Part shown: positions 39,120 through 61,551 of the stretch, piece after piece | Numbering within the stretch: the stretch's first letter is position 1 | Layout: every line of letters begins with the position of its first letter | Origin: Longimicrobiales bacterium | GTDB lineage: Bacteria; Gemmatimonadota; Gemmatimonadetes; Longimicrobiales; Gaopeijiaceae | Reading direction: 5' to 3' | NCBI GenBank assembly: GCA_951828585.1 | Contig: OX639991.1 | Coordinates: forward strand, 1,458,576 to 1,522,575 | Length of the DNA: 64,000 bases | Made by a program: the position numbers and the translations under genes | Notes under the pieces: generated by a model | What the model saw: the letters and a program-made list of their open reading frames with translations, nothing else | The model's database searches: none | Told to the model about the DNA's origin: nothing

Positions 39120-39134
39120 ATATCCGAGGGAGCA

Positions 39135-41262: not shown

Positions 41263-41265
41263 CGG

Positions 41266-41397: not shown

Positions 41398-41520
41398 CAC
41401 CGGACCGCACACCTGTCGGCGTCAGACCAACGCCGCTAGACCGAACTTCCAGCGAAATCCGGACTTTCTGACGCGGTAACCCATTGGGGAAGAAGACGTT
41501 AGGGGGGATTACCATGTCGG

Positions 41521-43341: not shown

Positions 43342-43351
43342 CAAATCCCGC

Positions 43352-44263
43352 CTATGTCACAGCACTACAATCAGTTGCCCGCTTCTGGACGGTCGAAGTT
43401 CTGGCTAGACCATCGTTAACAGCACGCACCTCCGATACTGACGGAACGCTAAGGGTGTCCGACAGGATGAAGATCTCACGCCCTTGGTAGGAGCTTGTAG
43501 CGCTGTACGGAAGGTTGTAAACGAATCTTCTTCGGCCCTCGTACAGATCCATGATATCCTCATGCGCGTCGTAGGACACCATCCAATGATGAGCGAGTTC
43601 TGTCTGGATAACGCCGGCGAGGCGTACGTGGTCGGCCCGCTCATATCCGTCTAGGTACAACCGTTGCGATCGCTCGTAGTACGGCGGATCGCAGTAGATC
43701 AGGGTCTGTTGGATAGGCAGATGAGTCGGTGCATGTCGGCGCATGAAGTCCTCGGCATCCAGGTTTGTCACGCAGATCCGGTCCGCTTTCGTGGCAATGG
43801 CCTCCACCCGTCGGGCCAACTCATTCCGCGGAAACCGGGCGTCGATCCTCCACCTCCCAGTTTGCGCCAGACCTCCGATTACTCCGGCGGTCAAGATCCC
43901 CGAACGGTTACACCTATTCAGGTAGAAGGTGCTGAACCCGAGCGAGAAGAGATCGTGGTTCTCAGGATGACGCACGATCTCACGATGCCGCCGCCAATCG
44001 TCGACGGTCAGTGCCGCCGTTCGGATTCTCCTACAGAAGTCCTCCGGGCGAGTGACGATCGAGACCCAGACGGCGTAGACATGCAACGACGAGTCGTTGA
44101 GGTGTATGTGGCTGACATGGCCGCCGAGAAGAAGATCTAACGCAACGCCTGCTCCACCCGCGTACGGCTCGGCGTAGTGACCTCCGACAAGGTCATTGAG
44201 CTCCAAGATCTCTCGAACGAACGGAGCCAGCCGCTGCTTCCCTCCGGGATACCGGAGTGGCGT
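43352..44263 (-). CDS. D12-class (Dam-like) adenine-N6 DNA methylase
   Basis: The frame reads TPLRYPGGKQRLAPFVREI (44263 downwards), then YAEPYAGGAGVALDLLL (AdoMet site) and LIYCDPPYYERS (catalytic DPPY), the D12 methylase layout. No ATG, GTG or TTG lies before the conserved RYPGGK; the first standard start in frame (TTG, 44206) would remove it. An ATG in another frame just upstream suggests that one base was lost or that a CTG is used. It is the last gene of a minus-strand operon. The C-terminus lies next to an IS end. Confidence 0.85.
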   Translation of the reverse strand, partial: TPLRYPGGKQRLAPFVREILELNDLVGGHYAEPYAGGAGVALDLLLGGHVSHIHLNDSSLHVYAVWVSIVTRPEDFCRRIRTAALTVDDWRRHREIVRHPENHDLFSLGFSTFYLNRCNRSGILTAGVIGGLAQTGRWRIDARFPRNELARRVEAIATKADRICVTNLDAEDFMRRHAPTHLPIQQTLIYCDPPYYERSQRLYLDGYERADHVRLAGVIQTELAHHWMVSYDAHEDIMDLYEGRRRFVYNLPYSATSSYQGREIFILSDTLSVPSVSEVRAVNDGLARTSTVQKRATDCSAVT

Positions 44264-44329
44264 GACGTAACGTGCGATCAGAGACCTCGGCGATCTTGAC
44301 CCGAGCGCGTCCCATCTGGATGTCCGGGC

Positions 44330-45703: not shown

Positions 45704-48700
45704 GGGAGTCTCTGGGTCTCGGGAAGTGGCTGGGAGTGGAAGCAGATGAGAGTTGGGCAGCGCCAAGATGAGAGCTTCGTTGCATCTCAGTCAATGGGCC
45801 GCTTTCCAGAACCCCCATCCAGACCACCAGATTCACTTCGTCCTCCTCGATGGGATCGAGCGGCTCGGGCGGCTTCCACGGCTGTAGCCCGAGTTCGTTC
45901 ACGACATCGGCGATCCTGCGTGTCAATTCTCCAGCGGGGACGTGGTCGGGCGCGAACACTTCGCGGAGCCGACGCTCCTGGCGGATGCCCCACGGCGCTT
46001 CGAGGGCGTCCGCAACCCGGTCCCGATCCTCAACGGACAGCCCGGCTGCGGGATGTATCCGGACATGGTCGGCGGCGGCCCTGAAAAGCGGGCGGATGCT
46101 GGGCTGGAGGGTGGCCGGATCGGTGGCGCGCATCCATTCGTCGTAGATGTCGCGGCGGGCACGCTCCCAAGCGCCGAAGGCTCCTTCCGCGAACCCCTCC
46201 GGCAGCGCGCGCTCGGTGTGCTCGGTGCATGAGAGGATTCCGAGACAGGTCAGGGTGTCGCGCTCGATCTCGGCGTCCGCCTCCGAGGGCACGAACCGCA
46301 TGAACACGCGGTCGAAGACGCGGGCGCAGAAGACGTGGCCGGTGCGGGATCCGCCCACGAATCCCGAGCCGACCCCCCACGCCAAGTCTCGGATCCGGTC
46401 GCCCCAGCGCTCGATTCCCTTCCGCAGCTCCTGCCGGTACTCCTCGCCGCTGTGCGCGTGCACGCCCTCGCCTCCCCGCTCGAAGAGGGAGGAGTCACCC
46501 CTTCGGAGGTCCTCGATCTGCTTCCGGTCGTCCGCGAAGACCTGCTGGGTCTGCTCCATGCCGGGTATCGGGGGTTGTTCGACTCCGATCGAGGCGGCGG
46601 CTTGGGCCAGCTTCCGGCGGATCCGCTCTTCGAGTGCGAGAAGGGCCTCGAGTTGACGGTCGGGAAACACGCAGGTGAGGAACACCTTCTCGTGAGGACT
46701 GCCGATGCGGTCGATGCGCCCGTGGCGTTGCACGAGCCGCATCGGGTTCCAAGGCAGGTCGTAGTTGATGATCCGTCCGCACTGCTGGAGGTTCATCCCT
46801 TCGGCCAGCACGTCGGTCGTAACGAGGATGTCAAACCTGTCCTCGGACCGCGACGGCGGGGCCTCCGTGGATTCGGGTGCGAAGCCGAACACCGCGTCGC
46901 TACGGGAGATCCCGTCGAACGACTCGGTGCCCCGGACGACGGCGATGCGTCCGCGGTACGGGGCGAGCCGCCGATCCGCGGCCACCACCTCCTGCAAACG
47001 CTCGGCGATCCACTCGACGGTGTCGCCGAAGTAGGAGAATACGAGCACCTTGCGCCGGTTGCGGATGTCCCGTTCCGTGATGCCCTTCCGCTCGGCCTCC
47101 GCCGCGATGCGGGCGAGTTCCCCGGCGAGGAGCTTGAGCTTGGGGTCGTTCTCCGCCCTAATCGCGGACGCCCGAACCCGGAGGCGTTCGAGAAGCGCCC
47201 GATCCGACCGCACGTCTTTGACGAGCGTTGCGGTGTCGAGGTCATCCGCGACCGGCTCGCCCTCGCGGAGAAGCTCCTCCCACGCCTCGTCTGAATCGGT
47301 CTCGCGGAGCGCGGCCAGGGAATCGGAGGACGGGATCACCCCGCCCTCGATCGCGCGCACGAAGTCATCGTGAGCGGCGACCATCCTGCTAACGGTCTGA
47401 ACGAACGCCCGTGCCGACGACTCGAACCGCTTGAGCAGCCCGGAGCGGATGAGGCCCACCAGCGCGGTCTCGCGGGCGTCGGGAGTCCCGTCGCGTCGGT
47501 AGCGGGTCGGCCAGTACCGGGCCATCGTGAGCTTGGGCTCGCCCTCCCCGGCGTCCAGAACCTCCGCGAACTCGCTGAAGAATCCGGGAAGCACCTCGTC
47601 CAGATCGTAGCTTCGGGCACGGACCTCCGGGTCCGGGAACCGTATCGTGACCTCCGTCCCGTCCTTCAGGCGGAAGTTGTCGTTCGGGTAGAAGCGCTGA
47701 ACGAAGTGCCGCGTCCGCCGCACGGTGGTGGCGTCGAGGATGTCGAACAGGGTGTCCGGGCTGAGCGAGAACGGATCCTCCTTGTCGGCCTGCCGGAACC
47801 GCTCCTTGAGCGAGGGGATGCCTCGGTCCGCGAACACGGCGTCGTGGCCGACGAAGTAGGTGAGGAGATCGTAGAGGTCCCAGAGCGAGTTGTTCACCGG
47901 CGTCGCGGTAAGCAGGACTACCTTGCGGGGCGGGTCGCCGCGCAGCAGTTGCCGGAGCGCGCGCGCACGCTTCGTGTCCGCGTTCCGGAAGGCGTGCGCC
48001 TCGTCAATCACGACGAGCGAGTAGTCGCCGATGCTAGAGCCCAAGGCGCTTCCGTCCCCCTGGCCCAGTTGCCGGTCGCCGGCCAGTTGCTCGAATGACA
48101 CGACCTCGATGCCGACTTGGTAGCGCCCTCTGAATTGCCTCCACATCCCGTCCCGTAGCTGGGCCGGGGCGATCAGGAGCGCCCGCTGCCGGTTGCGCTC
48201 GATGACCTCGGTGAAGATCTCGGCCGCGATGAAGCTCTTCCCGAGCCCCACGCTGTCGGCGACCAGCACGCCGTTGTACTGGTCGAGGATCCGCTTGGCC
48301 CGGAACACGCCGTCGGTCTGGAAGCGCGTGAGCCGGATCCGGCCCGAGTCCCCGGCCTCCTCTTCGAGTTCGCCGCCGTACCGCTCCCACAGGGCGCGCA
48401 GATAGATCAGGTAGGGAGGATGTTCGGCGAACTGTTCCCTGTAGATGGCGGCGAGATCGTACGGACGGGCGTCGTTCCAAAGCCGGTCGAACCACTCTTC
48501 GACCCTCGCGACGACGCCTGGCTGGTATTGGCCGAGGTTGAGTTCGAGGTTTGACGTGAGCCCTGCGAGCGTGAAGTTCGACGATCCGGCGAGGACCCCC
48601 TGCTTGCCGGAGAACAGGAATGCCTTGCCATGCAGGAAGCGGTGCTCGTAGCGGCGCACCTCGATCTTGCCGGAGTCGAGGAAGTCCAGAAGCTCGCGCA

Positions 48701-49061
48701 CCGAAGCCCGGCTCGGCTCGGAGAACGGGAGGCGGTCGCGGTCCCGTCTGAGTCTGCGCTCCGCGCCGTCGAGTTCCTCGTTCGCCAGCCTCTTCTCGTA
48801 GCGTTCGCCGCGCGGATCGCCGAGGCGGCGCTCTGGCAGCCGGGCCGCGGGCAGCGGCTCGGCACCTAGCAGGAGGCGCACGCCCGCAGCGCGGCGGAGC
48901 ATGTCCGCCAGCCGACCGAAGCCCCCCGGATTGAAGTATCCCGTCGCGATGGACGCCGAAGGCGGTTCGCGCAGCGTAGCGAGCAGGTGTTCGAGGCGCT
49001 CCCGGAGCGCCCGTTCGAGGGTGTTGCCGTCCAGGTTATCCACGAACTCCGGGTGGCTCAT
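45696..49061 (-). CDS. PLD-like nuclease/SNF2 helicase
   Basis: A 1121-residue protein. The N-terminal phospholipase-D-type nuclease domain has H-x-K in FLHGKAFLF (His144, Lys146) and GSSN at 159-162. It is followed by an SNF2/RapA-type helicase: ADSVGLGKSF (268-277), DEAH (353-356), LLTATPVNNS, and motif VI QRHGRIDRIGS. The C-terminal ~250 residues are unassigned. Such proteins are found next to Eco57I-like methylases in bacteria and archaea; here the methylase stop overlaps its ATG (ATGA). Likely the motor and nuclease of a restriction-like system. Confidence 0.92.
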   Translation of the reverse strand: MSHPEFVDNLDGNTLERALRERLEHLLATLREPPSASIATGYFNPGGFGRLADMLRRAAGVRLLLGAEPLPAARLPERRLGDPRGERYEKRLANEELDGAERRLRRDRDRLPFSEPSRASVRELLDFLDSGKIEVRRYEHRFLHGKAFLFSGKQGVLAGSSNFTLAGLTSNLELNLGQYQPGVVARVEEWFDRLWNDARPYDLAAIYREQFAEHPPYLIYLRALWERYGGELEEEAGDSGRIRLTRFQTDGVFRAKRILDQYNGVLVADSVGLGKSFIAAEIFTEVIERNRQRALLIAPAQLRDGMWRQFRGRYQVGIEVVSFEQLAGDRQLGQGDGSALGSSIGDYSLVVIDEAHAFRNADTKRARALRQLLRGDPPRKVVLLTATPVNNSLWDLYDLLTYFVGHDAVFADRGIPSLKERFRQADKEDPFSLSPDTLFDILDATTVRRTRHFVQRFYPNDNFRLKDGTEVTIRFPDPEVRARSYDLDEVLPGFFSEFAEVLDAGEGEPKLTMARYWPTRYRRDGTPDARETALVGLIRSGLLKRFESSARAFVQTVSRMVAAHDDFVRAIEGGVIPSSDSLAALRETDSDEAWEELLREGEPVADDLDTATLVKDVRSDRALLERLRVRASAIRAENDPKLKLLAGELARIAAEAERKGITERDIRNRRKVLVFSYFGDTVEWIAERLQEVVAADRRLAPYRGRIAVVRGTESFDGISRSDAVFGFAPESTEAPPSRSEDRFDILVTTDVLAEGMNLQQCGRIINYDLPWNPMRLVQRHGRIDRIGSPHEKVFLTCVFPDRQLEALLALEERIRRKLAQAAASIGVEQPPIPGMEQTQQVFADDRKQIEDLRRGDSSLFERGGEGVHAHSGEEYRQELRKGIERWGDRIRDLAWGVGSGFVGGSRTGHVFCARVFDRVFMRFVPSEADAEIERDTLTCLGILSCTEHTERALPEGFAEGAFGAWERARRDIYDEWMRATDPATLQPSIRPLFRAAADHVRIHPAAGLSVEDRDRVADALEAPWGIRQERRLREVFAPDHVPAGELTRRIADVVNELGLQPWKPPEPLDPIEEDEVNLVVWMGVLESGPLTEMQRSSHLGAAQLSSASTPSHFPRPRDSHA

Positions 49062-49333
49062 CGGTCACTCTTCCAAGTTTGGAAGTGGTGCAGCGTGGCC
49101 CGTAGCGGTTCTTCGTGGTCCCAGCCCTCGTGGAACGTCTCGAATATGTGGACGACTTGCGACTCGATGAGGCCGTAGAGGTGTGCCACTACGGCGTCTA
49201 GTTCCCGGATGTGGTCCTGCTTCTCGTCCGGGTCCATAGGACCGCACGGGACGCCGAGTCGTCTGGCCCAATCGGCGAAACGGTCGTCCGGCGATGCGAG
49301 TCGCCCCGCCAATGCGATCGCGCGCTCCCCTAG
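49058..49333 (-). pseudogene. C-terminal fragment of Eco57I-like methylase, cut off by IS1182-type element
   Basis: The last ~91 residues (ERAIALAGRLASPDDRFADW, then AVVAHLYGLIESQVVHIFET) are typical of this methylase family's C-terminus. The piece is separated from the rest by the IS at 49334-50935. Removing the IS and one CTAG copy joins it in frame to the fragment at 50936. Its stop overlaps the helicase start. Confidence 0.85.
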
Positions 49334-50935
49334 GAGTCTGCGCCGCAGAAAACCACGACTGCTATCTTTAGGGGAGTCGAAGGCATCGTGAAAGGTTGAT
49401 GGCCAGCCGAGGGGGGTCAATGGGAACGACGTTCCGACCGTACCAGCCGGACCAGATGCAGCTGCTGCCGCAGGATCTGCGTGAGTGGGTCCCGGAAGGG
49501 CACTTGGCGCATCATGTGAGCGACCTGGTGGACGCGCTGGATCTGGATTCGTTCTACGCGCCGTACGAGGGGGACGGGCGGCGCAACTCGCCGTACGATC
49601 CGCGGATGATGGTGAAGGTGCTGGTCTACGGATACGCGACGGGCACTTTTTCGTCGCGGAAGCTGGCGACGAAGCTGGTGGAGGACATCGCGTTTCGGAT
49701 GCTGGCGGCGGGCAACTTTCCGCAACACCGGACGCTGTGCGAGTTTCGCCGGCGGCATCTTGATGATTTCGGGGCGGTGTTCGCCGAGGTGGTTCGGCTG
49801 GCGCGGACGATGGGCCTGGCGGGGTTGGGCAGGGTCTCGGTGGACGGGACGAAGGTCCGGGCCAACGCGAGCAAGCGCAAGGCGATGAGCTATGGCCGGA
49901 TGGCCAAGGAGGAGCGCCGGCTGCGAGCGGAGATCGCGGGACTGCTGGAGGAGGCGGAAGCGGTCGACGCGGCGGAGGATGCCCACTATGGGGAGGACGT
50001 TCGGGGCGACGAGTTGCCGGAGGAGTTGAAGCGGCGCGAGGACCGGCTGGCGGCCATCCGGGCGGCGAAGGCGCGGCTTGAGGCCGAGCAGCGGGCGAAG
50101 GACGACGCGCGGGGCCGCAAGCCGGGACAGGAGCGCAACGCGAAGGGAGGCAGGCCCTACAAGCGGGAGTACGGCGAGCCGGAAGAGAAGGCGCAGAGCA
50201 ACTTTACGGACCCCGAGAGCCGGATCATGAAGACGAGTTCGGAAGGGTTTCAGCAAAGCTACAACGCGCAGATCGCGGTGGAGGGGGACAACCAGCTGGT
50301 GGTGGCTGCGGCGGTGACGGACAACGCGAGTGACCAGGGCCAGCTGGTCCCGATGGTCGACGCGGTGGCGCAGACATGTGGCGAGACGCCGGAGCAGGTC
50401 TTGGCGGACGCGGGTTATTGCAGCGAACCGAACCTGCAGGCGCTGAAGGAGCGGGACATCGACGGCTATGTACCGCTGGCGCGTGAGGGCAAGACGGCCG
50501 CCGACCCCGATCCGGAAGAGTATCCCGCCAAGGCCCGCATGGCCGAGAAGCTGGCAAGCGACGAGGGCCGAAAACGGTACGCACGCCGCAAGTGGATGGC
50601 GGAGGCGCCTGTCGGCTGGATCAAGGAGGTGATGGGATTTCGAAGATTCAGCTTTCGGGGCCTGCGGAAGGTCGAAGCCGAGTGGACCCTCGTGTGTCTG
50701 GCCCTCAACGTGAAGCGGCTACATACCCTCCAGGCCGCATGAGGCGGCGTTCGTTGCCCCGCAACTACGCCCACCGAGGCTCCCACGGGCCTCCTGGGCC
50801 CCGATTTGGCACTGCACGGCCCTCCCGCCCCGTCAGCGGCTCGGATCCCCCATCCCCCCACCCCCGAGTCTTTCGATCCCCCAGTGCCCTTCCCAGGTTT
50901 CCGTCACGTCCGCCGCGCTTCTGCGGCGCAAGCTC
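49334..50935 (+). mobile_element. IS1182-type insertion sequence
   Basis: A 1602-bp element with 17-base inverted ends (GAGTCTGCGCCGCAGAA at the left; GAGCTTGCGCCGCAGAA read inwards from the right) and one transposase gene. It is flanked by CTAG on both sides (49330-49333 and 50936-50939), a 4-base target duplication typical of this family. Inserted in the methylase gene in opposite orientation. Confidence 0.9.
49420..50742 (+). CDS. IS1182 family transposase
   Basis: A 440-residue transposase starting MGTTFRPYQPDQMQLLP after a GAGGGGG site. It has GRVSVDGTKVRANASK (first catalytic Asp), a middle charged helical region, VLADAGYCSEPN (second Asp region) and the C-terminal RKWMAEAPVGWIKEVMGFRR with Glu. 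Length and motifs are complete, so it may be active. Confidence 0.93.
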   Translation: MGTTFRPYQPDQMQLLPQDLREWVPEGHLAHHVSDLVDALDLDSFYAPYEGDGRRNSPYDPRMMVKVLVYGYATGTFSSRKLATKLVEDIAFRMLAAGNFPQHRTLCEFRRRHLDDFGAVFAEVVRLARTMGLAGLGRVSVDGTKVRANASKRKAMSYGRMAKEERRLRAEIAGLLEEAEAVDAAEDAHYGEDVRGDELPEELKRREDRLAAIRAAKARLEAEQRAKDDARGRKPGQERNAKGGRPYKREYGEPEEKAQSNFTDPESRIMKTSSEGFQQSYNAQIAVEGDNQLVVAAAVTDNASDQGQLVPMVDAVAQTCGETPEQVLADAGYCSEPNLQALKERDIDGYVPLAREGKTAADPDPEEYPAKARMAEKLASDEGRKRYARRKWMAEAPVGWIKEVMGFRRFSFRGLRKVEAEWTLVCLALNVKRLHTLQAA

Positions 50936-52198
50936 CTAGCGGGCTGTCTCCGCCGGGACGAGGGACGGGGAAAGGGTTGATGACGAAGTAGGTCAGGTGG
51001 GTCTCCACGAATCGCCGCGCATACCAGTCGAGGGGAAGGGAACTCAGTAGGCCAAGTAGGAAGGCCTCGTCCCTCTCGCCTCCGCGCGGGAGGAGGAAGA
51101 AAGGGGAGTTGTGGACCAGCAACACCCGTGGCGGCACCAACGCGGCGCGGACTGTGCGACTGTCGGTGGCACGAGTGACATCCCGGAAGGCGATGCGGGC
51201 CTTCAGGCAGGGCAAGGTCGCCGGGTCCTTGCGCCATTTGGGGCTGAACTCCGCGAACGCCGAGCGCCTGTTCGCCCGCTTCCGCTTGCCCTGAAGGTGG
51301 CCGAGAACCCGAGCGGGGTCTGCCCATGCGTAGTAGGTCCCCGTGTCCGGGGTCCAAAGGTCGAACGACGCCCCCTTGTAGACCGGCCAGAAGCCGTCGG
51401 GACACTGTTTCGATTCGAGGTCCATCACCGGCTTGTCTGCGGTGGCGTGTAGCTCCGTTTGTGGCCGCGCCCGCCAACCCCTTCCGTCGTTCAGGTCCAG
51501 CCGCGGGCTCTTGCGCAACTGCGCGAACACTTCGACGGACTCGTCCGACGGCAGAAGCGGGAGCGAGGCCGTGTCGTTCCACGCCCCAACCTCTCGGGCG
51601 CGGAACGTCACCGCAGCCCGCCGGACACCGGCCCGGAAGCGCTTGAGGTTCGCGTACGGCCCGCTCAGCCGAAGCTTTGACTCGCGGCTGTCCTTCCTGC
51701 GGGTGATGGTAGTCAGGCCAATGGTGTATTGGGGATGGACGTTGGGAAACACCCACTCGCGATTGTTCACCAGCATCGTCAGGTCCAGCACCTCGGCGCT
51801 CGCCAGCAACTCCTTGCGGAACGCCGTGGATCCCTTCGCCGCAAGCGCCGAGCGCGGTAGCACGACGCCGATCCGCCCGCCGTCCCGCGACACAAGATCC
51901 CAGAACCGCCACACGAACGCCTTGTAGAGGTCGGGATCGCCGGTTCCCATGCCGGGGAACCCTCCAGCCGTGAGAAGGTGGCGCATCGAAGCCGCGCCGT
52001 CCTTTTCAGTTTCGAGTCGGTCCGCCAGATCCGGGCGCTGGGCGCGATACTGAACCTTCAGCGTCTCCTGCACCCTCTGCGGGCGCGACCGCAACCCCGG
52101 GAAGTGTCGCGCCCAGAAAGCGTCCTCTTCGACGCGGGGTTTTTCCCACGGTGGATTGCCGAGAATCACGTCGAACCCGTTGCGTCGGCCAAAGGAAG
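50936..52198 (-). pseudogene. Eco57I-like methylase, catalytic-to-target-recognition part
   Basis: This frame reads FGRRNGFDVILGNPPWEKP, with methylase motif IV NPPW, then a long target-recognition region (VVLPRSALAAKGSTAFRKEL, WADPARVLGHLQGKRKR) to VINPFPVPRPGGDSPL at the IS. It joins the preceding fragment through a frameshift near 52198: one extra C in GTC-TTC-C-TTT would explain it. The rest of the motif order is normal for N6-adenine methylases. Confidence 0.87.
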
Positions 52199-53136
52199 AC
52201 ATGTGGGAAAGCGAGCGCGAAGTGCAGTACATCCAAGCCCTTAAGTTCGTCGCGTCCTTTGTCCATCAACTGGGCTCGGAAGATGTCGCCCGGGTCGTCC
52301 AAAGCCGTCGCCACCCGTCCCTCAGCGATTGCTTCGCGGATGCCGCTGTTCGTGCGCGAGGCCGTCAGGAGCGTAAAGAGCTCCTGCTCCGATTGTATAG
52401 CCTGCCGCATTCGAGAATACAGTTCCCGCGCCTCACGGATCTCGGCATCGTTGGCGTCGGTGAGCCGGGCCAGCCTCTCAAGGGGCTTCCGCACCGCTCC
52501 CAGCCGCTCGCTCGCGACGAACGCGAACAGGTTGCCGCTCTCGGTCTGAAAGAGTTCGGACGCCTCCTCGAAAGAAGCGATCCCCACGAGCGAGTTGCCT
52601 TGGATCAGGTTGTGGTCGAGGAGCGAGAGCGGGAGCCCCGGCACGAAGGTGTGGATCCAGAGCGAGAGGCGAGCCAGTTCGACGGCCATCGGGTTCATGT
52701 CCACCCCGAAGATGCATCGCCGGGCCACCTGCCTGCGAAGCAACTGGGTGTCCTCGATGGGGTCCCCGGACCATTCCGGCCCAAGCTTTTCGGCCGCCGT
52801 CCGGCGGAGCCGAGCAAACTCCTCGCGCACGTCCGGGAGGGGCCGGCCGGCCAGATAGTTGGCGAGACGGCGTTCGATCCGGTCCACTGCGCCGACCAGG
52901 AAGTGGCCGGAGCCCATCGCGATGTCGGCGACCCGGAACTCGAAGAACCGCCGTCCCGCTTCCCGATCCGGCATTTCGTCGAGCCGCTCGATGTGCTCGT
53001 CGAGCGCCGGTTCGAGCGCCCGGTCGAGGAGATGCTCGACGGCGAAGGCCGGGGTGTAGTAGGAACCGGTGGATTTCCGCGCTCCCGAACGGTTGTGGAG
53101 ATACACTTCGCCCGCCCGCACTTCGGAACCTGCCAA
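52199..53136 (-). pseudogene. Eco57I-like methylase, AdoMet-binding part
   Basis: STGSYYTP (motif X-like), then DIAMGSGHFLVGAVDRIE (AdoMet motif I) and CIFGVDMNPMAVELARLSLW. It ends in VLHFALAFPHVF at the frameshift. The fragment starts right at the inner edge of the IS3-type element (T-S-L-A-G-S-E-V reading out of it). The ORF continues in the wrong frame for another 60 codons beyond the shift. Confidence 0.87.
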
Positions 53137-53158
53137 CGACGTTGAGACACTTTCCGAT

Positions 53159-54196
53159 TCAGTTTAGTGAGCCCTCCTTTCCCCCGTTGGCCGGCTCTGC
53201 TCCATCGGCTGCCGTGACGGGGAGTGCGCGGTTGATCCAGACCTCCACCGGGAGTTCCGCAGCTCTCGGCGGGCCACCGACAAAGCGGTCGGGCCGGGCG
53301 GCGTAGGCCGCAGCCAGCACCTTCTGTCTGTGCTCGATGACCGCGGGGGCGCGGCCGAGATGGACCTGTTCCGGCGTCAGCAAGCCGATGCCGCCGTGCC
53401 GGTGCTCGGTGTTGTACCACTGGAAGAACTCCCGGCAGAAGTCCTTCGCCTCCTCGATGTTGCCGAAGCGACCCGGGAAGCCCGGATGGTACTTGACGGT
53501 CTTGAAGTGCGCCTCCGAGTAAGGGTTGTCGTTCGAGACCCTGGGGCGGCCCAGCGACTGGGTGACGCCCAGGTCGGCCAGGAGCTGCGCCGTGCACTTG
53601 GCCGTCATGGGAGATCCCCGGTCCGAGTGCAGCGTGAGCACCCGGGGCTGCACACCGTGCTTGAGGCATGTCTCCCCGATCAAGTGTCCGGCCAAGCCGG
53701 CGGTCTCGCGCTCCGCCACCATCCATCCGGCGGCGTAGCGGCTGTAGATGTCCAGGATCACGTACAGATAGAAGTACTGCCACTTCTCCGGCCCCAGCAG
53801 CCGGGTGATGTCCCAGGACCACACCTCGTTGGGTGCCCTGGCCACCACCTCGGGCTTCGGGTGGTTGGGATGGCTACGTTGCGCCCGGCGCTCGCGGACC
53901 GCCTGATTCTCGGCCAGGACGCGGTACATCGTCCGCTCCGAACACAGATAGACGCCCTCGTCCAGCAGCGTCGCGTACACTTCCGCGGGAGCACGGTCCG
54001 CGAAGCGCGGCGAGCACAGCACACCAAAGACCCCCGCCCGCTCCGTCGCGTCCAGGGCCCGGGCAGGAGCCGGCCGGGGCTGCCACTGCCCGGTCTTCGG
54101 CCTCCGGCGACGGTAGAACGTGGCGCGCGCAACCCCGAGGGCTTTGCACGCCGCGCGTACGCCCACGTGCCCGGCCAAGCCTCTGGCCGCGCTCAA
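53159..54196 (-). CDS. IS3-type transposase, OrfB (DDE catalytic subunit)
   Basis: A 345-residue integrase-core protein: VWSWDITRLLGP (first Asp), LTLHSDRGSPM (second Asp), and NPYSEAHFKTVKYHP (Glu). It begins at a TTG overlapping the OrfA stop (TTGA). The N-terminal helix-turn-helix (GVRAACKALGVARATFYRR) is intact. Full-length, possibly functional. Confidence 0.92.
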   Translation of the reverse strand: MSAARGLAGHVGVRAACKALGVARATFYRRRRPKTGQWQPRPAPARALDATERAGVFGVLCSPRFADRAPAEVYATLLDEGVYLCSERTMYRVLAENQAVRERRAQRSHPNHPKPEVVARAPNEVWSWDITRLLGPEKWQYFYLYVILDIYSRYAAGWMVAERETAGLAGHLIGETCLKHGVQPRVLTLHSDRGSPMTAKCTAQLLADLGVTQSLGRPRVSNDNPYSEAHFKTVKYHPGFPGRFGNIEEAKDFCREFFQWYNTEHRHGGIGLLTPEQVHLGRAPAVIEHRQKVLAAAYAARPDRFVGGPPRAAELPVEVWINRALPVTAADGAEPANGGKEGSLN

Positions 54197-54642
54197 GAGC
54201 GCTTCCCGTCCCCGGGGCTCACACCCAGCAGCCCCGCAACTTTTCCCTGGACATCGATGATGATGCGCGCCTTGCGAAGTTCCTCGCGCAACCGCGCGTT
54301 CTCCCGCTCCAGCTTCCGCACCCTCTTCGCCTCACGCTTCCCGCCGGACGGCCTCGGGCCTCGCTTCTTCGCCAGCCTCCGCAGCGACCCTTCCCGCGCC
54401 GCCTTCCGCCACGACGACAAGTGCGAACTATACAGTCCTTCGCGCCGAAGCAGCTCTCCGATCTCGCCCGGTGTATCGCAGGCGTCCGCCTTCTCCACGA
54501 TCGAAAGCTTGTACGCCGCCGTGAACCGCCGCCGCGTCGTCTTCGCCGCAACCTCCGGATCCGGCCGGGCTGCCGCGCTTCGCTTGCCCTCCCCCGTGGA
54601 GAGGGGCGTTCCGTTCACCTTCATTCCTTCTCCTCGTGCCAT
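54193..54642 (-). CDS. IS3-type transposase, OrfA
   Basis: A 149-residue protein with the helix-turn-helix TTRRRFTAAYKLSIVEKADA, GLYSSHLSSWRKA and a C-terminal leucine-zipper-like segment (KLERENARLREELRKA), as usual for IS3 OrfA. Two starts are possible (54642 and 54624). It overlaps OrfB by four bases, where the fused OrfAB might be made by frameshifting. Confidence 0.9.
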   Translation of the reverse strand: MARGEGMKVNGTPLSTGEGKRSAAARPDPEVAAKTTRRRFTAAYKLSIVEKADACDTPGEIGELLRREGLYSSHLSSWRKAAREGSLRRLAKKRGPRPSGGKREAKRVRKLERENARLREELRKARIIIDVQGKVAGLLGVSPGDGKRS

Positions 54643-54651
54643 CGTTCAACT

Positions 54652-56266
54652 CTCTGCCTCGCCCTACTCTAATCTCTTTCTCCTCTCGTGTCTCGCGTGT
54701 GTTGGCAGAGAGGGCTTCGACCGTGTCGCCGGATCGGGCCGGGAGGTATGCCTCCGTCTTGGCGTCCACCGTCAGGTCCGTCTCGGCGAGCGAGAGCTCG
54801 CTCTCCAGCAGACCCTCGTAGATCGTTCCGAACTCGCGGATGCCGAGCGACCGGAAGTCCACCGGGCCTTCGGTTTCCTCGGCCGTCCGGTCGAGGAGCA
54901 GCGCGGCGAGCGCCCACGCGAACTCGCGGTCGGGGAGCGACAAAGTCGCGATCCGGGCTCCGAGCTTCGAGACGGATTCCTCGGAGGCGAACAGCGTGCC
55001 GTTGTACGGCGGGACCTCCCACTCCGGGTTTCCGAGGCTCACCGCCGTCCAGATCTGCGTGACCTCCGACCAGAAGGAGGGCTGCTCTCCTAACTCGACA
55101 CCCTTGCGCCGGGCCTCGCCCAAGCGCTGGGCGATCCGCTTGAGCGAGTGCTCGCGGTAGCTCCGCGAGGCGTGCAGGGGCAGCAGGCCACGGTCCTCGG
55201 CATAGGCGACGAACAGAAGCCTGTAGAGGATGCGAAGCGCCGCTTGGTAGGCCTGTCGGAGATCGTCCGCAGTCGGACGCTCCGGATACATCGCCGCCAC
55301 GACGGCGCGGGCAAGCGACGGCATCACCTCGCGGTAGACCCGCTCGCGAAGACGACCGCCGAGATCCGCAGCGTAGTCCTCGCTCGCCCGGAGGATGTCT
55401 CCGACGCTCCCGCCCTCCGACAGCGCGGTCGCGGACAGCAGGAGCCAGAGGTAACCGGCGTCATCGCCCGCAAGGAGGTCGAGATCGATCTCGACGAACG
55501 TCTCGGAACGTCCCCGTCGGCCCGTGCCGACACCGGGTTTGGCCGGATAGAGGCGGAGCGTACCACCCGCCACTGCGACCACCCAGTCCAGGTTCTCCCG
55601 GTCGGCCTGCGCCAAGGCGTAGGACACCGGCGAGACGCCGTCGAACCTCGGGCTCGCGGAGTCGATCTCCTCGGGCCGGTCCAGAAGGACGGCTACCGCC
55701 GTCTTGCGGTCTCCGGCCAAGAGCAGCATCGCCGGTCCGGGAAGCTCCTCGGTGGCGAATCCGAGACCCTCGATCAACGCGCGCCCCCGGAGAGGCCGCA
55801 CGCTGCGCGCCTCTTCGGCCGCGTGTGCCCAGTCCCCGCGCGACGGAACCCCCTGCTCAAGTTCCTGCATCGCGAAGAGACCGCCGTTGCGGAGGCCCGG
55901 GATCGGCGCGTCCAATGCGGGGAGCAGCCGATGAAGGAGGCGGATCGCGGCGTGCCGTCCATTTTCCTCCAATGCCCTGCCGCACACGGCTTCGACCTGC
56001 TCGACCGGCAGGTCTCGATGCTCGACCGGATTGTGCTCGGTCGGGCCACACACCGCCGCCCGCCCCGCGCCCCACGGCGCTACGATCAGCACCGGCGCGG
56101 CGCGGCGTCCCGCCCGCGCCCGGAACATCGCCCTGAGATCCGCGATCCGGGGCCGCCCTTCCAACGCGGCCACGACGACTTCGAGAGCGAGCGGGCCGAG
56201 CCCGAGATAGAGCTTGGCCCGGCGGTCTCCGACGGTGACGTGGCGGGGTTCGAGATGGTTGAGCAT
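54652..56266 (-). pseudogene. Eco57I-like restriction-modification methylase, N-terminal part
   Basis: The first ~538 codons of a very long Eco57I-type RM protein (ATG at 56266): a beta-rich N-terminal domain (LYLGLGPLALEVVVAAL), LRNGGLFAMQELEQG, then AYQAALRILYRLLFVAYAED and EFGTIYEGLLESELS, the helical part before the methylase domain. The gene should continue to 49058 as one ~1350-codon frame but is broken by the IS3 element, a frameshift and the IS1182 element. It heads the operon with the helicase, ParB-like and D12 methylase genes. I see no PD-(D/E)xK nuclease motif in it. Confidence 0.87.
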
Positions 56267-56491
56267 GACGAGAAGGATCCGGTTCGTGACTGGAGAGGGC
56301 GACGATGAAGGCAGTCAAACTAGAGACGATCCGGAGACGGGGCGACCTGACCGGTCCCTATCTATGCAGCGGACCCTTGCGATTCGGCGCGCAAGTAGCA
56401 GCGAACCCGGTTATTCGGTAGAGTCAATGGACCATGAATCCCCACCCGATCCGCACCACGTAGTCGGCAACCCAGATCGCGGAGGTCAGTT

Positions 56492-56713
56492 GTGGACCTG
56501 CAATGCATGGCGGTGTTCCGGAAAGTTCCCGAGGGCTACATCGCCTTCATCGAGGAGTTCCCCGGTGCCAACACCCAGGGCGCTTCCCTCGAAGAGGCCC
56601 GGTCGAACCTTCGCGAAGCCGTCGCCATGGTGATCGAAGCCAACCGGGAAATGGCCCGCGAAGACGCCGATGGCGGTGCGGTCATCAGAGAGCCCATCAC
56701 CGTCACGGCGTGA
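56492..56713 (+). CDS. HicB-type antitoxin
   Basis: A 73-residue protein (GTG start, GGAGG upstream) with FRKVPEGYIAFIEEFPGANT and GASLEEARSNLREAVAMVIE, the degenerate RNase-H fold of HicB antitoxins. It has no separate DNA-binding domain. It precedes the toxin and overlaps it by four bases (GTGA), the reverse of the more common hicA-hicB order. Confidence 0.9.
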   Translation: MDLQCMAVFRKVPEGYIAFIEEFPGANTQGASLEEARSNLREAVAMVIEANREMAREDADGGAVIREPITVTA

Positions 56714-56904
56714 AGCGCCGGGACTTGCTGCGGCACTTAACGCAACACGGGTGCGCCTTCCTGCGTGAGGGCGGGAACCACACCCTCTACATCAACCGGC
56801 AGGCCAAAAAGGTTTCGACGATTCCCCGGCACAGCGAGATCAACCGGGACCTCGCGAGAAAGATCTGCAAGGACCTCCAAGTGCCCCGGCCTCCAGACAG
56901 GTAA
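56710..56904 (+). CDS. HicA-type mRNA interferase toxin
   Basis: A 64-residue dsRBD-like toxin: MKRRDLLRHLTQHGCAFLRE, then GGNHTLYINRQAKKVSTIPR with the catalytic His24, and HSEINRDLARKICKDL. HicA toxins cut mRNA in a translation-independent way. The active site looks intact, as does the partner HicB. Confidence 0.92.
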   Translation: MKRRDLLRHLTQHGCAFLREGGNHTLYINRQAKKVSTIPRHSEINRDLARKICKDLQVPRPPDR

Positions 56905-56905
56905 G

Positions 56906-57325
56906 ATGGCAAGGCGGCCCCAGCAGCCCAGGAAACGCCGGTGTGGGTCCTGCGGCAAGCTCTATGTGGGCCGTCCCCGGCAGGAAACCGTATGCCTCAC
57001 CTGCGACACCCGGGGGCGGCTCGGGGCGAGACATCCGGGGCCATCGCGGTTCGCTTCGGGATCCCCCGGTTCCTTGTCGAGGCGGTGCTGGAGTCCGATT
57101 CTCAAACGACCCGTACCCCTCGGAGGTCGGCGATCGTCGATCGTGGCGGATCCCAGAGCCCGTAGTTTTCCCGAAACCGATCCAGATCGGGGGGCTGAAC
57201 TCATCTTGGGGTGTCCCCACGCACGGTTACCTCCGATCCGGTCCTTGGGGAGGGTCCCGCCTGCAAAGGCGCTCTGCGATGGGCGCGTATCGGCTTCGGC
57301 GGGCTTCGTCCTTGGGCTGGATTGA
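56906..57325 (+). CDS. Hypothetical zinc-ribbon protein, perhaps frameshifted
   Basis: An ATG one base after the HicA stop opens MARRPQQPRKRRCGSCGKLY, followed by QETVCLTCD: two C-x2-C pairs about 17 residues apart, a zinc-ribbon pattern. After ~40 residues the composition becomes unconvincing (Arg/Ser/Pro), while another frame reads AIAVRFGIPRFLVEAVLESD, a helix-turn-helix-like stretch. A frameshift near 57030 is possible. It may be the first gene of the mobilizable element. Confidence 0.45.
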   Translation: MARRPQQPRKRRCGSCGKLYVGRPRQETVCLTCDTRGRLGARHPGPSRFASGSPGSLSRRCWSPILKRPVPLGGRRSSIVADPRARSFPETDPDRGAELILGCPHARLPPIRSLGRVPPAKALCDGRVSASAGFVLGLD

Positions 57326-57787
57326 AACCAATCGCGGACCGAATCCGTAAGGTATCGCCCTTCGGGTCACCGAAGCGCGAATGGCAGCCCGATCAAACGA
57401 GGCGAAACGCGGGAGGAGACGCGTAGTTCAGGTTGATCCATACCACTGCGGAACTGATGCCTGTGTCCCCCGCCAGGGGCACTGGCGGGGATCAGTCGCC
57501 GTTCCGGCTTGGGTACATGGACGGCCCGGCATCCCGGGCGTCTATCTGGCCGCGGACCGCGCTTCGCGACGCCTGCTGAACGGCTCCGGCGGAGCGTTTG
57601 TGGGAGTGCGCCGCCACCGCAATGCTGGCGGACACCGAGGGGTGTCGGACACGCCGCCGCCGGGGTTGTCTGTCGCCTGTTTGGGCGGAGAGCCAGCATA
57701 CCCTCCGTGGCCACGCTTCGCGCGTCCCCGGAGGGAGCTGGCGGGGGGCTGTGCCCCCTGTGACCCCCCCATCGCCAACGGCGCGTC
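57326..57787 (+). other. Non-coding region with inverted repeats, candidate oriT
   Basis: Directly upstream of mobC. It contains CCCCGCCA (57467-57474) with TGGCGGGG (57482-57489), a strong 8-base hairpin, and GACACC-GAGG-GGTGTC (57631-57646). Origins of transfer usually lie just before the relaxase operon and carry such repeats. The nick site cannot be identified from sequence alone. No credible gene is seen. Confidence 0.4.
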
Positions 57788-58126
57788 ATGAGTACCGGAC
57801 GCGCCGTGTGGGTGAAGATCCGCTCCAGCGAGGCGGAGCGCGCCGAGTGGCACGCCAAGGCGCGTTCTGCCGGCCTGACGCTGTCGGATCTGTTGCGCCG
57901 GTCGGTTGGCCGGGTGCATACCTGGACCGTGGCGCACGCCGACGTGGAGCACGAGCGCACCCAGCAAGTCGCGCGCATCGGGAACAACCTCAACCAGATC
58001 GCTCGGTGGGCCAATACCCACAAGGGGGCCATCGAGGCCGTCGAGGTGATCGGCCACCTGACTGCTATCGAGCGTTCGCTCGCGACCCTCGCTCGCTTCG
58101 AAAGCCAGGACAGCGATGCTGGTTAA
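57788..58126 (+). CDS. mobC: Relaxosome accessory protein MobC (MbeC-like)
   Basis: A 112-residue protein starting MSTGRAVWVKIRSSEAERAE. AKARSAGLTLSDLLRRSVG is a ribbon-helix-helix-like DNA-binding part, and QQVARIGNNLNQIARWANTH is the MobC signature. MobC/MbeC helps the relaxase open oriT. It overlaps the relaxase gene by 11 bases. Confidence 0.93.
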   Translation: MSTGRAVWVKIRSSEAERAEWHAKARSAGLTLSDLLRRSVGRVHTWTVAHADVEHERTQQVARIGNNLNQIARWANTHKGAIEAVEVIGHLTAIERSLATLARFESQDSDAG

Positions 58127-59705
58127 GTTCCTCGCGCGCGGGACCGGCTCGGCCGGGGCAGCGGTCGGCTACCTCCTCGGGGAGCGGGACGCGGCTGGGA
58201 AGCTGCGCGAGGGTGTCGAGGTGCTGCGCGGGAACCCGGACATGGTGGCCGCCGTGGCCGATACGCTGGCGTTCGAGCACAGGTACACGTCGGGCGTGAT
58301 CGCCTGGGCACCGGAGGACCGACCCACCGACGAGCAGATCGAGGCGGTCCTGGACGCCTTCGAGAAGACGGCCTGGGCGGGACTGGAGCCCGACCGATAC
58401 GCTTGGACCGCCGTGCTGCACCGCGAGCACGGCGGCGGCGCTCACGTCCACGTCCTCGCCGCGAGGTGCGACCTGGAGACCGGACGGAGCCTCAACATTG
58501 CCCCTCCGGGATGGGAGAAGACCTTCGGGCCGCTCCGGGACTCCTTCAACCACGAACACGGCTGGGCGCGACCGGACGATCCGGCTCGGGCCAGAGTGCA
58601 GCAGCCCGGACACCGCGCCTATGTCGAGGCGACGCAGTTGAGGGCCGGCCTCCGGCTCGAAGCATCACCCCGCGACCTGATCCGGGACTACCTGCTCCAG
58701 CGAGTCGAGCACGGCATGGTGCGGAATCGTGCCGATGTCGTCTCCGCGCTGCGGGAGGCGGGTCTCGAAGTCCCGCGCCAGGGCAAGGACTACCTCACCG
58801 CGCTGGACCCCGAGAGCGGGGACCGGTGGCGGCTGAAAGGAGAACTGTATGGAGAGAACTTCGACCGCGAACGACTTGACCGAGCGGCTGCGGAGGAGGC
58901 TGGAGAGCGAACGCAGGGAGATCGAAGAGTTGACCGCGAGCGAGCTCGAACGGCTCGCAGAGAACTCGCGGCGCGTCGCGAGGAACGCGCTACGTACAAT
59001 CGAGCGCGATACGGAGGAGGCGACCGGGCGGATGCGCGAGTTGCTGGTCAAGGCGTGGCAACGGCCGCTGATCGTGGGCCTGAGCCTTTGGCTGGGTTTC
59101 TTCGGCGGAAGCTGGGTGACGATGCGCTGGTTGTCGAGGAGCATCCAGGATCGGATCGAGAGGCTGGCCGAACTGGACTACGACATCTACGACACGCGAC
59201 AGACGCTCGCGCAGATGGAGGTGGACACCTGGGGGGTCGCGCTGCTGGAGATCGAGGGGGAGCGGGTCGTGGTGCTGCCGACGGGGACGCTGGAGGATCC
59301 GCGCTTCACCTGGCGCGGTCGGCCTGTCGTGAAGCTGTCGAACAAGTAAAGGAGCTGTATGACCGAATTGGAGAGGCAGTTGACGGAGGCCTTGAAGAGG
59401 CTCTCCGCGCAGTACGAGAGGGAACAGCGGCGGCACTCCGGGCAGGTCGAAGCCTTGAGGCAGCGCGTCGAAGCCTTGCAAAGGCGCGTCGAGCGGCAAA
59501 GCGAGGAGAACGAAGGCTTGCGGCAGCACGTCGAGCGGCAGAGCGGGGAGAACGCAGCCTTGCAGAGGCGAATCGAGTGGCTGGACGAGCAAGTTACACG
59601 CTTAGCCGAGTCGTACGGCACGCTCGCCGCGACCTTGTGATGATGATAGGGGCGCTGAGCCAGCGCGGGCGCGGGCCGGAACGCGACCACGGTCCGAGCC
59701 GTTGA
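58116..59705 (+). CDS. mobA: ColE1 MbeA-type relaxase MobA
   Basis: A 529-residue relaxase. The N-terminus MLVKFLARGTGSAGAAVGYL resembles ColE1 MbeA, including Tyr19, the nicking tyrosine position of MbeA. RYTSGVIAWAPED follows, then the metal-binding region LHREHGGGAHVHVLAARCD with His102, His110 and His112 (ColE1 itself has a His-Glu-Asn set here). From 58849 the coding sequence is shared with mbeB- and mbeD-like genes in other frames, as in ColE1. It nicks and guides DNA for conjugal mobilization with help from a conjugative element. Confidence 0.92.
   Translation: MLVKFLARGTGSAGAAVGYLLGERDAAGKLREGVEVLRGNPDMVAAVADTLAFEHRYTSGVIAWAPEDRPTDEQIEAVLDAFEKTAWAGLEPDRYAWTAVLHREHGGGAHVHVLAARCDLETGRSLNIAPPGWEKTFGPLRDSFNHEHGWARPDDPARARVQQPGHRAYVEATQLRAGLRLEASPRDLIRDYLLQRVEHGMVRNRADVVSALREAGLEVPRQGKDYLTALDPESGDRWRLKGELYGENFDRERLDRAAAEEAGERTQGDRRVDRERARTARRELAARREERATYNRARYGGGDRADARVAGQGVATAADRGPEPLAGFLRRKLGDDALVVEEHPGSDREAGRTGLRHLRHATDARADGGGHLGGRAAGDRGGAGRGAADGDAGGSALHLARSACREAVEQVKELYDRIGEAVDGGLEEALRAVREGTAAALRAGRSLEAARRSLAKARRAAKRGERRLAAARRAAERGERSLAEANRVAGRASYTLSRVVRHARRDLVMMIGALSQRGRGPERDHGPSR
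58849..59349 (+). CDS. MbeB/MobB-like mobilization protein nested in mobA
   Basis: A 166-residue protein in a different frame inside mobA, with a strong AAAGGAG site before the ATG. A charged helical N-terminus (DLTERLRRRLESERREIEEL) is followed by a hydrophobic stretch (PLIVGLSLWLGFFGGSWV) and a short soluble tail. Position, size and layout match ColE1 mbeB, which also lies wholly inside mbeA and is thought to stabilise the relaxosome at the membrane. Confidence 0.82.
   Translation: MERTSTANDLTERLRRRLESERREIEELTASELERLAENSRRVARNALRTIERDTEEATGRMRELLVKAWQRPLIVGLSLWLGFFGGSWVTMRWLSRSIQDRIERLAELDYDIYDTRQTLAQMEVDTWGVALLEIEGERVVVLPTGTLEDPRFTWRGRPVVKLSNK
59359..59640 (+). CDS. MbeD-like mobilization protein nested in mobA
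   Basis: A 93-residue coiled-coil protein (MTELERQLTEALKRLSAQYE, then repeated ALQRRVERQS and GLRQHVERQS heptads) with AAAGGAG just before its ATG. It closely resembles ColE1 MbeD in start and length and is placed in the same order, after the mbeB-like gene and inside mobA. MbeD in ColE1 is needed for mobilization and entry exclusion. Confidence 0.85.
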   Translation: MTELERQLTEALKRLSAQYEREQRRHSGQVEALRQRVEALQRRVERQSEENEGLRQHVERQSGENAALQRRIEWLDEQVTRLAESYGTLAATL

Positions 59706-59839
59706 CGATGGCGTCAAGTCGCTTGCCACCGGAACGCCGTAGCGCCCGGCGCGCCGCCGACCGCCCGTCTGGCGGAGACGCCGTCCCGGCGCGAAATTTC
59801 AACCGCGCAGATCGTGCGGTCCATCACGAGAGGAATCGA

Positions 59840-61003
59840 ATGATGGCACGCACGAAACGAAGTCGGCGCTCGTACAGCGCCGGCGAATGGGGCCGGAACC
59901 GGGTGAGGGTGTTCGCCGATCCCAAGACCGGCTTGTACCAGATCGAGTGGCGCGAGAACGGGCGCAGGCTCACCCGGTCGCTCAAACACCGCGATTGGGC
60001 GAGGGCCAAGAGGCAGGCGGACGAGGTGGCCGCTGGCTTCGCGGTCCACGAGCCCAACGGCAAGGCGGAAGCCGAGCCCGCGCCGCTCACCCTGGAAGGG
60101 CTTTTTGAAATCTACGGCAAGGAAGTGACGCCTACCAAGGGCGAGCACACGCGGCGACGCGACAGGGTCGCAGCCGCGATGTTCCTCCGCTTCTTCGGGG
60201 GGAACCGAAGGCCCGAAACCCTATCCCAGCGCGACTGGGACCGGTTCATCCGGGAGCGCCGAGCAGGCAGGGTTGGCCCCAGCGGCAAGCCCGTCGGCGA
60301 CCGGATGATCGAATGGGACCTGACGTTCCTGATGGCGGTACTGAACTGGGCGGCGAGGTCGAGGGACGAGGATGGCCGCCTGCTCCTCGACAGGAACCCG
60401 CTGAAGGGCCTCCGCAAGCCCAGGGAGAAGAACCCCACCCGGGTTGTTCTCACGGAGGAGGAATACCAAGCGCTTCTCAGCGTCTCGCGGCAGGTCGACT
60501 GGCGGTTCCACGTCGCGCTCGTGCTTGCTCACGAGACCGGGCATCGGATCGGCGCAATTCGCAACCTCAAGTGGTCGGACATCGACTTCGAAAGCGAAAC
60601 GGTGCGGTGGCGTGCCGAGCACGAGAAGACGGGTTACGAACACAGGACGCCCTTGTCCCCTGAAGCCACCGATGTCCTTGGAGAGGCGCAAAGGCGTAAC
60701 CCGGAGAGCGGGGACGCGCCGGTCCTGCCCGCGACCAGGAATCCCTCGGTGTGCTTGGGCTTCCCGCAGGCCCGTTTCTGGTGGAAGCGGGCGGAGCGGC
60801 TCGCTGGACTCCAACCGAAGCGCGGTAGGGGGTGGCATTCACTGAGGCGGAAGTTTGCGTCCGATCTCATGGACCTCCCGCTCAAGGTGCTCTGCGAACT
60901 CGGAGGCTGGAAGGCGGCCAAGACCGTTCTCCGCTGCTACCAGCAGCCGGACGAGGCGCAACTCAGGCAGGCAATCCGGAGCCGCCGCAGGCCGCGGGGC
61001 TGA
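59840..61003 (+). CDS. Tyrosine recombinase/integrase
   Basis: A 387-residue integrase. It has a basic N-terminal arm-binding part (RTKRSRRSYSAGEW, then GLYQIEWREN), a core-binding domain, and the catalytic set Arg236 (ETGHRIGAIRNLKW), Lys263 (EHEKTG), His333 and Arg336 (WHSLRRKFA), a Trp at GGW-K and the nucleophile Tyr367 (VLRCYQQPD). All catalytic positions are present. It marks the right end of the mobilizable element. Confidence 0.93.
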   Translation: MMARTKRSRRSYSAGEWGRNRVRVFADPKTGLYQIEWRENGRRLTRSLKHRDWARAKRQADEVAAGFAVHEPNGKAEAEPAPLTLEGLFEIYGKEVTPTKGEHTRRRDRVAAAMFLRFFGGNRRPETLSQRDWDRFIRERRAGRVGPSGKPVGDRMIEWDLTFLMAVLNWAARSRDEDGRLLLDRNPLKGLRKPREKNPTRVVLTEEEYQALLSVSRQVDWRFHVALVLAHETGHRIGAIRNLKWSDIDFESETVRWRAEHEKTGYEHRTPLSPEATDVLGEAQRRNPESGDAPVLPATRNPSVCLGFPQARFWWKRAERLAGLQPKRGRGWHSLRRKFASDLMDLPLKVLCELGGWKAAKTVLRCYQQPDEAQLRQAIRSRRRPRG

Positions 61004-61010
61004 ACCCAAT

Positions 61011-61044
61011 CGGCGGGAATCAAACAGCTGGAACTCGCCCGCCG
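61011..61044 (+). terminator. Hairpin after integrase gene
   Basis: CGGCGGG (61011-61017) pairs with CCCGCCG (61038-61044) across a 20-base loop, 8 bases after the integrase stop. It could act in termination or, given its position, be part of the attachment region. It lacks a U tract. Confidence 0.35.
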
Positions 61045-61055
61045 AATCCCGCAAG

Positions 61056-61265
61056 TCACACGCTTACAATGGTATCCGCACCTGATTGCGAATGCTGGGC
61101 CAGCTGGTGCAGTTCCAGGCCCGACACACCCCGCTGTCCGGTTTCCATCTGGAATACCGCCGAGCGTGAGACCCCGAGGGCTTTGGCGGCTTTCGCCTGT
61201 GTGATGTGGCAGGCCTTCCGCGCGCTGCGAAGGCGTCGAGCGAGGTCAAGCTGGGTGATCGGCAT
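61056..61265 (-). CDS. XRE family helix-turn-helix protein, perhaps truncated
   Basis: A 69-residue protein from the ATG at 61265 (MPITQLDLARRLRSARKACH). The helix-turn-helix is clear: ITQAKAAKALGVSRSAVFQMETGQR. After LELHQLAQ, where relatives usually continue, it ends in HSQSGADTIVSV; the 3' end may be cut by the integration of the element next to it. Its regulator role is likely local. Confidence 0.75.
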   Translation of the reverse strand: MPITQLDLARRLRSARKACHITQAKAAKALGVSRSAVFQMETGQRGVSGLELHQLAQHSQSGADTIVSV

Positions 61266-61551
61266 CGGGGGGCTCACTTGGGGTTGGCCGCGCTCGGGCA
61301 AGGGTGACCCCCGAACTGCTGAAAGATAGATTCGCAACTATGATGGCAATATATCGCGATTGGTGTGCAGTATTATCCCACGAAATCATGTGGCCGGTGG
61401 TCACAATTGCACTCCTCCGGGTTGGAAACTGTACTTTGAGTGGGAGCCAGTGCCACTGGCCACTCATCGTCCGCCGAAAGGCGGGCCAACCGGGACCCCA
61501 AGGGGATTCGCCCACTCGGACCCATCCACTCCATTTCAATAGACGGGCATC

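Follow-up and report, generated by a model that had tools for sequence, protein, structure and literature searches.

Chromosomal islands with a ColE1-style mobilization module in sponge symbionts of two phyla

Gene content and boundaries of the element

The stretch of DNA analyzed here (64,000 nucleotides; referred to below as the window) belongs to a closed 4.47-Mb chromosome of a Longimicrobiales bacterium (Gemmatimonadota). It contains mobC, the relaxase gene mobA, and two genes preceded by ribosome binding sites that lie entirely inside mobA in another reading frame (Table 1). The first-pass annotation had described this cassette, with its Tyr19 relaxase, as following the ColE1 order mbeC, mbeA, mbeB, mbeD; every gene was present as claimed, and the order was borne out by the coordinates, the family matches, and the profile and BLASTP matches to MbeB. 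The relaxase matched the NCBIfam MbeA family (E = 1e-27, a score under that family's strict 500-bit cut-off) and carries Tyr19, His102, His110, and His112. Tyr19 was aligned in every relaxase row covering that column, and a search of solved structures gave no relevant relaxase match. For nested gene D, the Pfam MbeD_MobD match exceeded the cut-off. Nested B had no family match in the domain-family searches and none by tblastn against plasmids, and profile comparison was needed: a profile of nested B relatives gave a 97.7% match to the MbeB profile. As single proteins, nested B and ColE1 MbeB were matched by BLASTP (1e-7) and have a TWGV...VLPxG end in common.

Table 1. Features of the element, its flanks, and related insertions (positions refer to the window unless a locus is named)
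Feature	Position	Strand	Basis
Host gene, distal part, Peptidase_M78/ImmA domain	39135..40235	-	Pfam PF06114
Integrative mobilizable element, 20.9 kb	40224..61093	+	interrupted host gene; 11-bp direct repeat
attL repeat GCTGGGCCAGC	40224-40234		
Conserved left-end sequence of element family	40250..40337	+	nhmmer E 6e-24, the window being one of three seed sequences
PD-Lambda-5 A and B defence genes	43352..45766	-	PADLOC PD-Lambda-5_A 2e-183, _B 7e-97
PLD (HKD) + SNF2 helicase	45696..49061	-	PADLOC HKD+Snf2 2e-53
Type IIG restriction-methylation gene, broken	50904..56266	-	PADLOC REase_MTase_IIG across fragments
HicB-like antitoxin	56492..56713	+	Pfam UPF0150 3.7e-5, HicB_lk_antitox 0.0011; both below cut-off
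HicA toxin	56710..56904	+	Pfam HicA_toxin 6e-10
oriT hairpin, 52 bp	57691..57742	+	AGCCAGCATACCCTCCG matches ColE1 bom/nic region; stem covaries in related sites
mobC, MbeC-like relaxosome accessory protein	57788..58126	+	Pfam MobC, NikA-like; BLASTP vs ColE1 MbeC 7e-7
mobA, MbeA-like relaxase	58116..59705	+	Pfam Relaxase, NCBIfam MbeA; BLASTP vs ColE1 MbeA 3e-30
Nested mbeB-like gene B, one hydrophobic segment	58849..59349	+, mobA +1 frame	AAAGGAG RBS; MbeB profile match; codon-position test
Nested mbeD-like coiled-coil gene D	59359..59640	+, mobA +1 frame	Pfam MbeD_MobD; AAAGGAG RBS
Tyrosine integrase int	59840..61003	+	Pfam Phage_integrase 5e-17
attR repeat GCTGGGCCAGC	61094-61104		
Host gene, proximal part, HTH_3/XRE	61094..61337	-	Pfam HTH_3
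mobC-inserted relaxase-less elements	L048:4652-9577, L101:510-5895, L103:1575-5893, L135:1416-5893, L136:683-5898		

When a 17-base pattern combining the bom region of ColE1 with the corresponding window sequence was searched for in the 64 kb, it matched once, at positions 57691 to 57707, 97 bases upstream of mobC (0.03 matches expected by chance when two mismatches are tolerated). The count without mismatches is generous because the pattern was built from both of the sequences compared, which differ from each other at 2 of 17 bases. Of 56 sampled copies, 50 have an AGCCAG core upstream of mobA, a few of these matches being at loci where the scanned stretch was long. Across 19 distinct short-form sites, the hairpin showed two-sided pair changes in 29 cells (8.0 ± 2.1 in shuffles) and a covariation score of 0.302 (0.062 in shuffles); the window's oriT forms this hairpin with a longer loop. 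The nick is taken here to fall at the same bond as in ColE1.

The XRE/ImmA host gene is continuous in the four relatives examined (L080 to L083) and is split in the window between positions 40220 and 61094, with the matching remainder of the gene at 39124 to 40220. Because the host gene is uninterrupted in relatives and the right flank is matched from exactly base 61094 in five of them, we delimited the element as listed in Table 1. The earlier proposal that the cassette sits within an integrated mobilizable element that encodes a tyrosine integrase is thus upheld by the boundaries, the empty sites, and the integrase; the cassette first noted is only a part, the element extending 17.5 kb further left. 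Many copies, one of them on a closed Bryobacterales chromosome, begin with the same left-end motif, and the right end in the element family always lies just beyond int. In the Bryobacterales chromosome, these two landmarks delimit a copy of about 12.9 kb, where a 6-bp repeat alone was seen and may be due to chance. Other copies lie beside tRNA-like sequences, within the int of other copies, within mobC genes, or in different target genes, with flanking repeats of 7 to 11 bp whose sequence varies. These varied targets and differing repeats show that the integrase has a relaxed choice of site, which appears to vary by integrase subgroup, since some copies adjoin tRNA genes and others occupy variable coding-gene sites. 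Judged by eye, a tRNA-Pro-like sequence lies just past int in L044 and L047, and a tRNA-Arg-like sequence in L049, L051, and L065.

Cargo genes, including anti-phage defence genes, and transposases occupy the span from the left end to the mob module. The type IIG gene is broken by an IS3-type insertion, with an rve transposase inside it, and by frame breaks. The PD-Lambda-5 A and B genes adjoin the HKD-SNF2 helicase gene (43352 to 49061) near this type IIG gene, forming a defence cluster that is partly broken by insertion sequences.

Selection on the nested reading frames

The length of the nested open reading frames was considered as evidence that they are genes and was dropped as not significant: a stop-free +1 run of at least 166 codons occurred in 61% of synonymous shuffles of the relaxase, and because long +1 open runs are this common in GC-rich DNA, length is no proof. 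In 29 distinct copies, the nested starts are fixed at offsets of 733 and about 1243 nt and are mostly preceded by an AAAGGAG-type site. Mismatch rates at relaxase codon positions 1, 2, and 3 were 0.116, 0.096, and 0.323 outside the overlap, whereas over nested B they were 0.255, 0.228, and 0.259; the third-position excess of the relaxase frame is gone over nested B and reduced over nested D. Of 28 comparisons with the window, 24 showed nested protein B to be more conserved than the relaxase translation of the same DNA. Neither the ATG nor the GGAG site of nested B is present in the other four (L050, L053, L059, and L074), which may for this reason have lost the gene. We conclude that selection acts on the nested frame.

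In about a third of the copies, nested B begins with ACG, TCG, or ACC rather than ATG (L047 to L053, L057, L059, L067, and L074), and some of these retain the ribosome binding site. Such copies may have a weak start, a shifted start, or a decaying gene.

Relaxase phylogeny and distribution of the element family

Alignment confirmed an earlier observation that the relaxase of the window has His-x-His where ColE1 MbeA has Glu and Asn. Motif III reads H..HxH in all 81 of the 81 sponge-clade rows and also in plasmid relaxases of Methylomarinovum, Citrobacter, Aeromonas, Polaromonas, and Acinetobacter; it reads HEN in ColE1 and seven other plasmid relaxases, and HEH in an Arsenophonus plasmid. In the relaxase tree, the sponge copies form one clade (support 99) in which Gemmatimonadota and Acidobacteriota copies are interleaved and whose sister is the Methylomarinovum plasmid (support 89). 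The HEN rows are all on the same side of a branch (98). Since the root was placed on these rows for display, with no outside root, the tree is silent on the older motif state. The suggestion that the window relaxase may be an ancestral form of the family is nevertheless weakened, since His-x-His is ordinary in a wide group that includes proteobacterial plasmids and since the window protein is nested deep within the sponge-symbiont clade, with the Methylomarinovum plasmid as sister. HEN may well be the derived state.

Homologues were detected in 19 of 22 genomes of the same genus, often in many copies. Across the phylum the spread is patchy (40 of 395 genomes and 8 of 138 genera, 4 of these genera by weak matches only), and the element family also occurs in Acidobacteriota of sponges. 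Where carriers of related cassettes are named, most are Ca. Palauibacter or other bins of Gemmatimonadota; the sponge Aplysina aerophoba is the source of bins 43, 94, and 61 (PMC5649159). These names suggest that the host of the window is Palauibacter or closely related to it. The first-pass annotation was right to place the cassette in Gemmatimonadota, a host very distant from that of ColE1, and to doubt contamination from a ColE1-like plasmid, against which stand the closed chromosome, the empty sites in relatives, and the dozens of copies. The window's chromosome has three other mob-bearing places, all truncated or decayed, which suggests that many copies are dead. The int and relaxase genes of the window have intact reading frames.

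The N-terminal part of the relaxase is 90% identical between the window and the closed Bryobacterales (Acidobacteriota) chromosome, whereas the RpoB proteins of these genomes share only 48% identity. This disparity shows recent cross-phylum transfer of the element family. RpoB served as the host marker (82% identity between two genomes of the window's genus), the 16S comparison having given no SSU match in the window's genome. Over 885 bp of DNA, one of the truncated copies on the chromosome of the window is 93.8% identical to the Bryobacterales copy.

Transfer to Pseudomonadota, as read from "Gammaproteobacteria" titles (RHO1_bin_70, RHO2_bin_50, and SB0675_bin_31), was rejected. These titles look wrong because the same contig coordinates occur in G401, G257, and G305, genomes that the phylum search assigns to the window's own family. 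The loci L097, L099, L104, L122, and L143, titled Gammaproteobacteria, are apparently misnamed Gemmatimonadota bins. Pseudomonadota group counts in the tree are accordingly to be discounted; L163 and L167 (Pseudomonadales) fall outside this relabelling.

Neither a type IV secretion system (T4SS) coupling protein (PF02534) nor VirB4 (PF03135) was found in the window's genome or in 14 genomes of the same genus, and five other carrier genomes had no VirB4. Matches to mating-pair genes in the window's chromosome were limited to sub-threshold hits to AAA_10. Since none was found in the hosts examined, the mating channel would come from a helper conjugative element elsewhere; this helper must either not have been seen yet or have machinery missed by these profiles.

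Five further elements of 4.3 to 5.4 kb lie inside the mobC of relaxase-bearing copies. They lack mobA and mobC, and their integrase family and left end are those of the relaxase-bearing copies. Each contains exactly one oriT-like site; for comparison, the first 57 kb of the window contains none on either strand. These cases come from loci fetched via mobA, so that a preference for mobC cannot be read from them. On two closed chromosomes, five relaxase-less copies comprised one with a clear oriT, one with a weak degenerate match, and three with none. It is possible, although we hold the idea only tentatively, that sponge symbionts of at least two phyla harbor a layered network in which oriT-bearing satellites that prefer mobC hitch-hike in cis or trans on ColE1-style islands and disable the mobC of their carrier.

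Interpretation and comparison with known systems

Taken together, these results make it very probable that the cassette serves as transfer module for a chromosomal integrative mobilizable element that works like ColE1. The integrase would excise the element as a circle between the short direct repeats. MobC and the relaxase would then nick the oriT, with Tyr19 holding the strand end as in ColE1, and the nested MbeB- and MbeD-like proteins, judging by their homology, may aid the relaxosome or its delivery to a mating channel, which a helper conjugative element located elsewhere would supply. The integrase would then insert the circle into the recipient's DNA, where many short sites can serve as targets.

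The relaxase and integrase might instead serve mainly intragenomic movement or a replicative role, with cell-to-cell spread left to vesicles, phage, or natural uptake. That no T4SS was found in any host examined and that elements are inserted within one another is consistent with this, but we consider it unlikely given the conserved ColE1-type nic region, together with the toxin-antitoxin and defence cargo and tRNA-end sites typical of transferable islands. We know of no use of MbeB, MbeC, MbeD, or the ColE1-type nic region outside mobilization. Still less probable, and largely refuted, is that the cassette is the dead relic of a long-integrated, vertically inherited ColE1-like plasmid. Three damaged mob places on the same chromosome and the missing T4SS would suit such a relic; against it, the genes are intact and both frames selected, the oriT is intact with compensatory changes across the family, the copies interleave between Gemmatimonadota and Acidobacteriota, relaxases with 90% identity occur in genomes whose RpoB is 48% identical, the sites differ between genomes, and no Rfam RNA, including ColE1 RNAI, was found in positions 40000 to 61400. 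That the nested genes are chance open frames of GC-rich DNA is scarcely credible: equally long runs in shuffles and the missing ATG of some nested B starts favor it, but the strong ribosome binding sites at constant offsets, the loss of the third-position excess within the overlap, the superior conservation of nested B, and the homology to MbeB and MbeD all argue against it.

The reading as a transfer module makes the cassette part of a large family of chromosomal islands that has been active recently in uncultured sponge symbionts and would carry defence genes between phyla. ColE1-type cassettes have been regarded as characteristic of small plasmids of Gammaproteobacteria (PMC8683028). What is new is a ColE1-style module, with a non-ColE1 relaxase motif, in chromosomal islands of sponge symbionts common to two phyla. 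Restriction and toxin-antitoxin genes are common to sponge symbiont phyla (PMC5649159), and this island family offers a possible route for them. Because MbeB/MbeD nesting also accompanies His-x-His, the nested layout is older than, or independent of, HEN, and the origin of MOBP5/HEN becomes testable. Relaxases and oriTs missed by plasmid typing are also brought to light.

Compared with ColE1/pMB1 (MOBP5/HEN), the window has the same gene order, including the placement of mbeB and mbeD inside mbeA in its +1 frame, a relaxase with Tyr19, and a ColE1-like oriT/nic region upstream of mbeC whose core AGCCAGYATACMCTCCG is common to both. The window relaxase does not have the HEN form of motif III; its residues there are H102, H110, and H112. 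ColE1/pMB1 is a plasmid, whereas the module of the window is part of an integrated element with its own integrase, and the ColE1 RNAI/RNAII replicon origin had no Rfam match in positions 40000 to 61400. The His-x-His plasmids of Aeromonas, Citrobacter braakii, Acinetobacter, Polaromonas, and Methylomarinovum belong to the same relaxase branch and share its motif III (45 to 62% identity over the N-terminal part of the relaxase), but are replicating plasmids of Proteobacteria. Nested B- and D-like frames occur in the Methylomarinovum, Citrobacter, and Aeromonas plasmids, and a B-like frame in the Polaromonas plasmid; the first-pass description of the layout as known from ColE1-like plasmids therefore stands, but its restriction to Enterobacteria does not. 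MOB-suite calls in PLSDB list five His-x-His plasmids as non-mobilizable (L038, which is Methylomarinovum plasmid IN45P, and L039, L040, L190, and L199), so that mobilizable plasmids of this type may be under-counted.

The window element has an integrase, attachment sites, an occupied site with empty counterparts, and its own relaxase and oriT, and no VirB4 or VirD4-type coupling gene was found in the whole chromosome. The iMOB and iOriT integrative mobilizable elements likewise combine an integrase with an oriT, with or without a relaxase and with no mating channel (PMC11389934). The family described here differs from them in its ColE1-type nested module, in its Gemmatimonadota and Acidobacteriota hosts, and in that some of its oriT-only members sit in the mobC of relaxase-bearing members.
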